The notes under the pieces: generated by a model
The model's input: only the letters and a program-made list of their open reading frames with translations
The model's database searches: none
What the model was told of the DNA's origin: nothing
Part shown: positions 8,921-37,186 of the stretch, piece after piece
Layout: each line of letters begins with the position of its first letter
Numbering within the stretch: position 1 is the stretch's first letter
Translations under genes and position numbers: made by a program
NCBI GenBank assembly: GCA_947165045.1
Contig: CAMUYW010000009.1
Coordinates: 1 to 64,000 of the forward strand
DNA length: 64,000 nucleotides
From: an uncultured Fibrobacter sp.
GTDB taxonomy: Bacteria; Fibrobacterota; Fibrobacteria; Fibrobacterales; Fibrobacteraceae
Direction: 5' to 3'

Positions 8921-8956
8921 TTAGATTTCATTATATTGGTATGTAGTGGGGAGCTT

Positions 8957-9766
8957 ATGGCTAATGTTTTGAAATTTGAAAATATCGATAATGCGCGGCA
9001 ACTTGGAGGAATCCAAGCAGGGAACCGTCGTGTCAAGCAGAATAAGCTTTTTCGCAGCAGTAATTTGTCGAAAGCAACGGAACATGATTTGCTCCGCTTG
9101 CGCGATGATTATGGCATTCATTTGATTATTGATTTACGTTCTGACTTTGAATGTTTGCAAAAACCGGATCGATTGCTTGGTGAAATGCTGTCAGTGAATA
9201 TCCCCGTTATCGACGAAACCATGCATGGCGATGCCTTTAACAAGGATCAGGTGGTGCCTGCAACAGGTGTAGACTTTATGGAATTCCTTTTTGGAATTGC
9301 TCGCCATCCGGTCGGAGTTACGCTAAAAGACAAACTTTATAATTATTTTGTTAAAAGTGACTATGCACACCGACAGTACGGTGAGTTTTTCAAGATGATT
9401 CTTGCTCAAAATGGAGCTCCTGTATTGTGGCATTGTACCTCGGGCAAGGACCGCTGTGGCTTTGGAGCAGTGCTATTTCTTGCTGCGCTCGGAGCTAATG
9501 ATGATGATATTTTAGATGATTACGCCGAATCCGAAAATTCTTACCGCAAACAACTCGATGCAATGACAGCCAAAGGTCGTGAATCGGGACTGACGGATGT
9601 GCAATTGGATGTGCTGCATTTCTTGGTGAGCGTCAAGCGCGAGTACATGGAAACTCCGGTAAAGCGTATCAATGAAACGTATGGTTCGCTATTGAACTTT
9701 ATAAAGCAGAAAATCGGGGTCACGCAAGCAGAAATTGATACTCTTAGGGAATACTATTTGGAATAG
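8957..9766 (+). CDS. Tyrosine/dual-specificity protein phosphatase (Y_phosphatase3-like)
   Basis: This 269-residue protein has the cysteine-phosphatase loop HCTSGKDRCG (consensus HCxxGKDRTG), so the catalytic Cys and Arg are present. The N-terminal NARQLGGI resembles the NfRdlGGy motif of PF13350 phosphatases, and LIIDLRSDFE follows as in that family. I prefer the ATG at 8957 because GGGGAG lies 4 nt before it; an in-frame TTG at 8936 lacks this. It may act on phosphotyrosine or phospholipid; members of this family do both. It ends the plus-strand cluster. Confidence 0.85.
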   Translation: MANVLKFENIDNARQLGGIQAGNRRVKQNKLFRSSNLSKATEHDLLRLRDDYGIHLIIDLRSDFECLQKPDRLLGEMLSVNIPVIDETMHGDAFNKDQVVPATGVDFMEFLFGIARHPVGVTLKDKLYNYFVKSDYAHRQYGEFFKMILAQNGAPVLWHCTSGKDRCGFGAVLFLAALGANDDDILDDYAESENSYRKQLDAMTAKGRESGLTDVQLDVLHFLVSVKREYMETPVKRINETYGSLLNFIKQKIGVTQAEIDTLREYYLE

Positions 9767-10008: not shown

Positions 10009-10044
10009 GACGCCTGTCCTCGCGTCTGTCCTCGCGCCTGTCCT
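10009..10044. repeat. Three 12-bp tandem repeats
   Basis: Three copies of CGCGYCTGTCCT-like units (10009-10020, 10021-10032, 10033-10044). The last copy continues into a 26-nt stretch (10036-10061) that is repeated exactly inside the GH53 gene at 35835-35860. Confidence 0.75.
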
Positions 10045-10080
10045 CGCTTGACGGGGATGACGGGGATAATCCGCCATCGA

Positions 10081-10965
10081 TTACAGTTCCGGCTGCTTAC
10101 CAGTGAGGCGTACGAAGATTTCTTCGTACTTGGCGAGCGTGTTCTTCACGACGTCAGCCGGAATTTCCGGACCCGGGTAGGTCTTGCCCCAGTCAAGAGT
10201 TTCGAGCCAGTCACGGACGTACTGCTTGTCGAAGCTTTCCTGGTTTTTGCCGACCTGGTACTTGTCTGCCGGCCAGTAACGGCTGGAGTCCGGAGTCAGC
10301 ACTTCGTCGATGAGGATGGTTTCGCCATCGATTTCACCGAATTCGAACTTAGTGTCGGCGAGGATGATGCCCTTGGAGGCTGCGTAGTCGCGGGCCTTCG
10401 TGTAGATGTCGAGGGACATGTCACGGAGAGTCGTTGCGACCTTTTCGCCAACGATATCAAAAGTCTGTTCGAAGCTGATGTTTTCGTCGTGGCCAACGTC
10501 GGGCTTGGTGCTCGGCGTGTAGAGCGGCTTTTCGAGCTTCTGGCAGAGCTGCAGGCCTTCTGGGAGGACGTGGCCGCAGATCTTACCGGTCTTCTGGTAG
10601 TCTTTCCAGCCAGAACCGACGATGTAACCGCGAACGATGCATTCGACGGAGTGGCGGTGAGCCTTCTTCACGATCATGGAACGGCCGCGGAGGTAGTCGG
10701 CGTGCTTCTTGAGCACGGCCGGGTATTCGTTCACGTCGGCGGTGATGAGGTGGTTCTTCATGCCGAGGTGCTGGAACCAGAACAGCGAAAGCTGGTTGAG
10801 GATTTTGCCCTTACCAGGAATCGGGGTGGGGAGCACCACGTCAAAAGCGGAAAGACGGTCGCTAGCGACCATCAGGAAGCTGTCGCCGAGGTCGTACATG
10901 TCACGTACTTTACCCTGGTGGAACAGCGGAACTTCGGTAATGGGAGTATCAAATTTTAAGCTCAT
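10081..10965 (-). CDS. purC: Phosphoribosylaminoimidazole-succinocarboxamide synthase
   Basis: This cytoplasmic enzyme joins CAIR and aspartate using ATP to form SAICAR in purine synthesis. The 294-residue sequence shows the N-terminal ATP-binding block GKVRDMYDLGD, the SDRLSAFDVVLP motif, VRGYIVGSGWKDYQ, and the IILADTKFEFG segment of this family. The length fits the long bacterial/yeast-like form. The ATG follows AAGG at a suitable distance on the minus strand. It stands alone, convergent with the phosphatase gene; the other purine gene in the window is guaB at 26270. Confidence 0.97.
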   Translation of the reverse strand: MSLKFDTPITEVPLFHQGKVRDMYDLGDSFLMVASDRLSAFDVVLPTPIPGKGKILNQLSLFWFQHLGMKNHLITADVNEYPAVLKKHADYLRGRSMIVKKAHRHSVECIVRGYIVGSGWKDYQKTGKICGHVLPEGLQLCQKLEKPLYTPSTKPDVGHDENISFEQTFDIVGEKVATTLRDMSLDIYTKARDYAASKGIILADTKFEFGEIDGETILIDEVLTPDSSRYWPADKYQVGKNQESFDKQYVRDWLETLDWGKTYPGPEIPADVVKNTLAKYEEIFVRLTGKQPEL

Positions 10966-35686: not shown

Positions 35687-37186
35687 ATGAATTTTGGAAA
35701 AAGCCTTATTTTAGGTTTAACTTGTGTTTCGTTCGCTGCTTTTGTCTTGGGCTGTGGTGACGATCCGGCTTCGATATCAATTGAAAATTCTCAAATTGAT
35801 ACTCATTTCTCATCATCGTCACGTCATTCCGGGGGCCTGTCCTCGCTTGACGGGGATGACCCGGAATCTTCTTCAAGCGGTATCCCCCTGAGCTCCGCCG
35901 ATGATTCGGAATATTCATCGTCATCCTGGAGTGCAGCGATAGGATCCAGTAGCAGTAATGACGTTGAACCTGTTGAGTCTTCTTCTTCCAAAACATTGCG
36001 CTCCTCCTCTTCGCATCATTCAGGTTCTAATCCTAAATTGTCTTCAAGTAGTGTCATCCTGAGCTCCGCCGAAGGGTCTAGCAGCAGTATTGTTTCGGAA
36101 TCTTCGTCATCGCGGGATCCGAGTTCATCTTCTGCTCAACCCTTAAAAATTGATTTCTTCAACGGTGCTGACATTTCCGAAGTCCAAGAATACGAACGAA
36201 ATAACATAAAGTTTTACGATGTCGATGGCAAAGAAAGCGACATCTTTACGATTCTGAAAAATCACGGATTCAACTCCATTCGCTTGCGTACATTTGTCTC
36301 GCCAAAGGCGAAGTACGGCTATGCGGCAAGCGGTTGCGGTCATGACGCCGAAGCGTATGGCGATAAGGACCACGTTGTTGCTTATGCGAAAAAAGTCAAA
36401 GCTGCTGGCATGGGGCTCCTCGTGGACATCCATTACAGCGATGTTTGGGCTGATCCGGGCAAACAAATTATTCCCGAACGTTGGCGCGGCGTGAATAGTG
36501 CCGATGCAATGGCGGATTCCGTTTATGCGTACACGAAGGACTTGATGAATGCGCTCAAGGCTGCAGGCGCAACGCCAGACATGGTGCAAATCGGCAACGA
36601 AACGACTCCAGGCATCTTGATCCATAAGCCGAATAACAATACGGATTGCTGGGGAAATGGTGTCGACAAGGCGGCAACTTCAGTTAATGGCGACATGGGA
36701 ACCGCAGCGGGCAAGGCAAATGCTGCCAAGTATTTCAAAGCCGGAATCAAGGCGGTCAAGGAAGTTTCTCCATCAACAAAGACTGTGCTTCACATCGAAC
36801 GTATTCGCAAGGCCGAAACTGTCAATTGGTGGATGGGTGTAATTTTCGACGACTACAAAATTCCCGCAGATGTCATGGGCTTTTCTGCCTACACGGCTTA
36901 TGGCGATGGCACTCCGGACAATTGGAAAAATTTGTTCAACTCAGTAACTTCAAAGTATTCAAAACTTGAATTTATCGTGGCGGAATATAACGGCGGCGAT
37001 TCTGACAACCATTACAATTTCGATGGCTCGCGCAAAAAGACTCGCGAAATGGTTAAGGGCATGAATCGTTGGATTGGTGCGTTTTTCTGGGAACCGACAA
37101 TTGGCGGCGCTTGGGGTCCGTCGTTATTTGACAAAAAAGGCAATGGCATTTACGCTAACGCCAAAGCCTTCGAAGAATTTTATTAA
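35687..37186 (+). CDS. GH53 endo-beta-1,4-galactanase lipoprotein
   Basis: A 499-residue predicted lipoprotein with signal peptide ending FVLGC. A serine-rich linker follows (about residues 35-150), then a family GH53 catalytic domain. It starts FFNGADISEVQEYE and carries the acid/base Glu in VQIGNETTPG and the nucleophile Glu in FIVAEYNGG, with HYSDVWADPGKQ also typical. It should cut the beta-1,4-galactan side chains of rhamnogalacturonan I at the cell surface. Parts of the linker are encoded by REP-like DNA (35823-35868, 36053-36081). ATG 35687 is preferred; an in-frame GTG lies at 35678. Confidence 0.92.
   Translation: MNFGKSLILGLTCVSFAAFVLGCGDDPASISIENSQIDTHFSSSSRHSGGLSSLDGDDPESSSSGIPLSSADDSEYSSSSWSAAIGSSSSNDVEPVESSSSKTLRSSSSHHSGSNPKLSSSSVILSSAEGSSSSIVSESSSSRDPSSSSAQPLKIDFFNGADISEVQEYERNNIKFYDVDGKESDIFTILKNHGFNSIRLRTFVSPKAKYGYAASGCGHDAEAYGDKDHVVAYAKKVKAAGMGLLVDIHYSDVWADPGKQIIPERWRGVNSADAMADSVYAYTKDLMNALKAAGATPDMVQIGNETTPGILIHKPNNNTDCWGNGVDKAATSVNGDMGTAAGKANAAKYFKAGIKAVKEVSPSTKTVLHIERIRKAETVNWWMGVIFDDYKIPADVMGFSAYTAYGDGTPDNWKNLFNSVTSKYSKLEFIVAEYNGGDSDNHYNFDGSRKKTREMVKGMNRWIGAFFWEPTIGGAWGPSLFDKKGNGIYANAKAFEEFY
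35823..35868. repeat. REP-like element inside the GH53 coding sequence
   Basis: GTCATTCCGGG at the left and CCCGGAATC at the right form the outer stem. Inside lies a 26-nt block (35835-35860) identical to 10036-10061 in the purC intergenic region. In frame it encodes HSGGLSSLDGDDPESS, part of the serine-rich linker. Confidence 0.8.
36053..36081. repeat. Second REP-like segment inside the GH53 coding sequence
   Basis: GTCATCCTGAGCTCCGCC followed by GAAGGGTCTAG has the GTCATCCTGAG head common to many bacterial REP elements. A related copy of the CTGAGCTCCGCCGA block occurs at about 35888-35901. In frame it reads VILSSAEGSS. Confidence 0.6.

Follow-up and report, generated by a model that had tools for sequence, protein, structure and literature searches.

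Short palindromic repeats (REPs) of Fibrobacter have probably been inserted into, or recombined with, the DNA that codes for poly-serine linkers, been kept there only in a hydrophilic, serine-bearing reading frame, and then been multiplied. Fibrobacter is a cellulose-degrading bacterium studied for cellulose breakdown. The window, that is the whole stretch of 64,000 nucleotides analysed here, belongs to a genome of 146 contigs that is 87% complete and whose named relatives are F. succinogenes MAGs. It contains a GH53 gene with a Ser-rich linker of about 110 residues, in which copies from at least three genomic REP families are found (Table 1). In the genus at large, linker copies of a family are restricted in frame, and orthologous linkers exist with and without the repeat. 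REPs inside genes as such are already known, from the Rickettsia palindromic elements (RPEs) and from CGTC and GTAG REPs. What appears to be new is that several REP families have been captured repeatedly, each locked to one frame, in a single class of linker across a genus, and that empty sites exist.

Repeat copies in the linker of a GH53 lipoprotein

Table 1. Repeat-derived features of the window, their host gene, and loci elsewhere with REPs in ORFs of conserved proteins
Feature	Position or locus	Strand	Evidence
GH53 (endo-beta-1,4-galactanase family) lipoprotein gene, linker host	35687..37186	+	Pfam PF07745, E 9e-64, residues 159-452
Ser-rich linker, lipoprotein signal to catalytic domain	35810..36143	+	translation
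Family-1 CGTC REP, outer arms	35822..35869	+	arms ATTCCGGG/CCCGGAAT; intact consensus in orthologues L008, L011, L037
Family-4 segment nested inside the family-1 palindrome	35834..35860	+	5 further genomic copies; codon null p = 0.0007; absent in G019 orthologue (alignment)
Diverged local duplicate of 36036-36072, degenerate family-3 element (PLSSADD)	35865..35901	+	81% identity over 37 nt
Family-2 REP GTCATCCTGGAGTGCAGCGATAGGATCCA	35920..35948	+	0 mismatches to degenerate family-2 pattern; codon null p = 0.0007
Probable decayed family-1 copy (HHSGSNPK)	36014..36037	+	inferred from protein alignment with HHSELDPE/RHSGLDPE of orthologues
Family-3 REP GTCATCCTGAGCTCCGCCGAAGGGTCTAG, translating as VILSSAEGSS	36053..36081	+	1 mismatch to family pattern; codon null p = 0.0007
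Copy of the nested segment outside conserved genes	10036..10061	+	within larger REP with tandem CTGTCCTCGC repeats
REPs in conserved-protein ORFs	L217 (G000:C11), L227 and L231 (G014), L063 and L102 (G012), L145 (G023), L154 (G061)

The GH53 gene product starts with a signal peptide with an LGC lipobox, as read from the sequence, and its linker lies N-terminal to the GH53 domain. A preliminary description of this gene had reported several REP-like segments in the linker, and all the features and coordinates that it gave in the gene were present on re-checking. The complete GTCAT-type palindrome that it placed at 35823 (the sequence from there is GTCATTCCGGGGGCCTGTCCTCGCTTGACGGGGATGACCCGGAATC) is a double one, in which an outer stem, pairing 35826-35833 with 35860-35867, encloses a second stem of 7 bp. 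In frame, the family-1 element is read as CGT CAT TCC GGG ... GAC CCG GAA TCT, which gives RHSG...DPES. The inner 26 nt (35835-35860) are, as had been noticed, identical to 10036-10061; the further copies of the nested 27-mer in the same genome carry 1-3 mismatches, and a reversed control gave none. The copy at 10036 had been called intergenic, and it does lie between an ORF at 8936-9766 (+) and a convergent ORF at 10081-10965 (-), although short or antisense ORFs overlap it. The REP-like segment at 36053-36078 differs by one mismatch from its family, of which the genome has 22 other copies. The related segment near 35888 is a diverged local duplicate, with a degenerate element of the same family. 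Two copies are missing from the preliminary description, namely the probable decayed family-1 copy and the best copy in the linker, that of family 2, which is read in frame as TCG TCA TCC TGG AGT GCA GCG ATA GGA TCC (SSSWSAAIGS). Directly upstream of the GH53 start codon, three orthologues (L009, L011 and L012) have a GTCATTCC...GGAATC palindrome that is absent from the window gene.

A problem with repeats of this kind is that poly-Ser codons such as TCG TCA TC contain CGTCATC, the head of the REP, so that Ser-rich peptides might resemble REPs at the codon level by chance. When the linker peptide was kept fixed and its codons were redrawn 1500 times according to the codon usage of the other long ORFs in the window, families 2, 3 and 4 scored higher in the real GH53 linker than in all 1500 synonymous recodings (p = 0.0007 each, the floor of the test). 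The same recoding gave no clear REP in five other Ser-rich linkers of the window (best p = 0.012). For family 1, the values in orthologues L008, L011 and L037 are p = 0.001-0.006, from what is a weak codon test, as the peptide already dictates much of the REP. A DNA pattern for HSGLDPES was also searched in 41 genomes, allowing nearly all codon choices and letting Arg, Thr and a few other codons pass at the Ser positions. It returned about 100 sites, each spelled like the REP or differing from it by a few changes; a reversed control returned none. The preliminary description had held that the same peptide in unrelated codons would speak against a REP origin, and there is no such case among these sites. 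Synonymous recoding and the nearly any-codon search together rule out chance resemblance, to which we give practically no credence. At family-1 linker sites CGTCAT is often directly preceded by TCA, a codon that the genes of the window rarely use for Ser; this might reflect insertion next to TCGTCA.

Reading frames and host proteins across the genus

DNA patterns blind to the reading frame were used to survey three REP families in 41 Fibrobacter genomes, all of them drafts and many fragmented, with genes called by simple ORF rules, and the surroundings of the sites were examined. With this simple caller, the 99 sites of family 1 fall into 56 intergenic, 17 linker, 20 coding and 6 edge sites. 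All 17 linker sites have one orientation and one frame, which reads RHSGLDPES or a close form, and that frame is used at only one of the six interior sites of other ORFs. Family 2 has 128 sites, and here 16 of 16 linker sites share an orientation and a frame reading (S)SSWSxAIGSS, against 9 of 21 other interior sites. The comparison of linkers with other interior sites gives Fisher p = 0.0002 in each of these two families, with the independence of the sites overstated by those that are related as paralogues or orthologues. For family 3, every one of the 15 linker sites reads VILSxxEGSS in one orientation, in an examined set that was partly chosen for Ser-like loops. One exception to the frame is L079, with a family-1-like variant that reads VIPASSVNLPASS.

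The number of open frames is four in families 1 and 3 and five in family 2, and in each of the three the frame kept in linkers is the most Ser-rich of them. The common head GTCAT is read in three different phases (CGT CAT, TCG TCA TC and GTC ATC), which rules out that the phase of the shared head sets the frame. Since three families with the same head are kept in three phases, and always in the most Ser-rich frame, the frame is explained by selection on the peptide.

While 17 of the 99 family-1 sites are in linkers, Ser-rich segments make up about 1% of a 464-kb sample of the window genome. A higher density of REPs in linkers than between genes is unsupported for this genome, where 400 kb outside the window contained no REPs in Ser-rich segments. 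Two or three further linkers of the genome carry REPs (L057, L207 and L079, the last in a different frame). A strict pattern for family 1 within Ser codons was found in 14 of 80 Fibrobacter genomes, and this one consensus in none of 87 genomes of other Fibrobacterota.

The linkers that carry REPs belong to unrelated secreted proteins, including GH53, three GH16, Pel9A-like, pectate lyase, CBM77, Fib_succ_major and DUF4832 proteins as well as several without a Pfam match. REPs are also found inside ORFs of ordinary genes, for MnmE, a tetrapyrrole methylase/HemD fusion, an M18 aminopeptidase, an oligopeptide ABC transporter ATPase, an HrpA-like helicase and a methyltransferase, and in conserved-protein ORFs they mostly read LDPIAALQDD-, IPGQARND- or VIPGLTRNL-type peptides. 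In-gene REPs are broadly tolerated in Fibrobacter, as in Rickettsia, and their frame varies with context. Ser-rich linkers contain other units as well. In L443 (G116) and L447 (G133) there is another REP-like unit, VIASEAKQSSSS, which suggests another captured family. The linkers of L057, L104, L058, L384, L385 and L388 have DGGSxxAMT, NGDSGxGAGMT, SRNDE and similar units. These resemble REP arms in reverse orientation in which Ser or other codons have taken the place of the loop, and a forward REP often lies next to them, in the manner of a head-to-head dimer.

Empty and filled sites and the origin of the copies

The preliminary description had named, as support for its proposal, linkers of related strains that lack exactly these segments. 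The cleanest case comes from Pel9A, where G135 has GGAATGAGCTCGTCA, then the 30 nt CGTCATTCCGGGCTTGACCCGGAATCTAGC, then AGTTCCGCGGAAAGC, while G146 has GGGATGAGTTCCTCCAGCACCGCGGAAAGC and G117 is nearly identical to G146; the empty and filled forms differ by exactly one REP. In a second pair, G114 and G016, there is a 42-nt difference around the same element, and G012 has two copies of it. The GH53 orthologues are consistent with this. In that of G019, which is seven codons shorter, the outer palindrome (LHSGLDPES) is present and the inner element absent, and that of G014 reads CHSGLDPES at a place where the Ser linkers of G001 and G004, its close relatives, are shorter. The consensus that the linker copies share with intergenic ones points to gain and not loss as the likely source of these differences. 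In orthologues of the DUF4832 protein, linkers vary between a few residues (L391, L392 and L394) and long stretches packed with REP-like units (L381 has a long, Ser-rich linker), a series that makes a good system for dating linker growth. The proposal that REPs were inserted into a tolerant linker is supported by the orthologues, but the process is wider than one gene, several linker copies appear to have spread by local duplication as well, and in-gene REPs had been known before (PMC3733652, PMC2229807).

The process that we propose would start from several families of short GTCAT-headed palindromic repeats in Fibrobacter genomes, with family 1 belonging to the CGTC type. A REP would enter Ser-coding linker DNA by insertion or recombination; most frames would be purged, and the Ser-rich, hydrophilic frame that reads through would survive. 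The unit of REP and flanking Ser codons may then undergo local duplication, other linkers would perhaps receive copies of it, the loop would drift to Ser or Asp codons, and the linker would lengthen or turn over as a result. In the protein, the REP would be a tolerated spacer of which no further function is required.

Tandem units are present in linkers of G006 and G060 and as the 37-nt duplicate in the window, and the loop Ser codons of family 3 are TCC, TCT, TCA and AGT; duplication, copying and drift are the processes that we infer behind them. Some linker copies also share flanks, such as the family-2 tail GGATCCAGTARCAGT and the family-3 loop in VILSSSEGSS, and these tails and loops resemble each other more than they do those of intergenic copies. 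The shared flanks and tandem units point to copying between or within linkers for part of the set, so that there would be fewer independent insertions than there are sites; some copies may have passed from one linker to another. If this were nearly all that happened, a few captures long ago would have been followed by the shuffling of linker modules among secreted-protein genes through poly-Ser recombination. Such shuffling alone would give a single frame per family, and the frame is identical everywhere; the tail and loop variants are shared mostly in linkers, and the tandem units fit as well. We nevertheless consider it unlikely, in view of the Ser codons flanking family-1 copies, which differ widely between hosts, the intergenic consensus that these copies retain, the entry of the Pel9A REP as 30 nt and not as a longer shared cassette, and the four different Ser codons in the family-3 loop.

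It has been hypothesised for REPs elsewhere that they have roles in DNA or RNA (PMC3733652), and the palindromes in linkers might likewise be kept for protein binding, as an mRNA hairpin or for translation attenuation, with the peptide as a by-product. The nested element at 35823 folds as RNA at -21.7 kcal/mol (z -1.9), as such a role would have it, but the folds of the two other copies in the window are no more stable than those of shuffled sequences (z 0.1 and 0.5), loops change towards Ser codons, and a single reading frame is not what it predicts. This makes it a very improbable explanation. Insertion or recombination followed by selection on the frame is the explanation that we prefer. 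REP capture might even be a main and ongoing source of linker growth in Fibrobacter, with several families repeatedly seeding the poly-Ser linkers of secreted carbohydrate-degrading proteins, the Ser-rich frame being selected and the units multiplying; a good part of the linker sequence of the genus would then be domesticated selfish DNA. This is a wider claim that we put forward tentatively.

Known repeats and the growth of linkers

CGTC-tagged REPs (PMC3733652) have a CGTC tag (TGTC and CCTC are also seen in the class), a stem of 8-9 bp starting from AT and a loop of 4-5 nt, and are many between genes and some within them. Family 1 resembles them in all of this, as its consensus, from 71 non-linker copies, begins CGTCATT, its stem is 8 bp with AT at the base and its loop 5 nt, and its sites are mostly intergenic. 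Families 2 and 3 mostly begin TGTCAT and have weaker, interrupted stems, so that only family 1 is classed as a CGTC-tagged REP. Compared with the short unpaired CCA tail of the class, the 3' ends are GGATCCA in family 2, GGATCcA in family 3 and AATCT with variable bases in family 1. CGTC REPs are reported in PMC3733652 to be without a dedicated transposase. No RAYT (Y1_Tnp, PF01797) was found in the window's 87%-complete genome, and among the 12 of 41 genomes that have PF01797 a clear GTCAT palindrome lies near the gene at one of 12 loci; a resident RAYT was rejected as the mover on these grounds.

Di Nocera et al. (2013) describe intragenic CGTC and GTAG repeats in several species and remark that such inserts could be neutral where they fall in a flexible linker or loop (PMC3733652). 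Fibrobacter is absent from the main text of that account, and its available sections describe neither a concentration in one linker class nor a restriction of frame. RPEs (Ogata et al. 2000, 2002, reviewed in PMC2229807) are likewise palindromic repeats that have joined protein genes in frame, where they are apparently tolerated rather than functional, and Pel9A behaves like them in having an in-frame palindromic repeat and orthologues without it. However, RPEs are 105-146 bp long and occur in many conserved proteins (PMC2229807), whereas the Fibrobacter elements have 25-30 nt, belong to several families and lie in a fixed frame in poly-Ser linkers of secreted proteins. PMC3733652 counts RPE-4 and RPE-6 among the CGTC repeats. 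As another example, the intragenic small mobile repeats of enterobacteria (Delihas 2007) are also repeats from between genes, with open frames that have become part of protein genes (PMC2759123, PMC2229807), but they are longer (103-168 bp) and not directed to linkers. The literature searched, with subscription journals mostly outside its coverage, contained no prior description of Fibrobacter polyserine linkers or Fibrobacter REPs.

The origin and lengthening of low-complexity linkers in multidomain secreted enzymes are little understood. In the present case one can name the donor sequence, see the insertion against empty orthologues and measure the selection of frame, because three donor families with a common head are each kept in a different phase. 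What was a curiosity of repeats in genes becomes a process that can be counted. For the Ser-rich linkers of secreted Fibrobacter enzymes, selfish DNA appears to serve as raw material.
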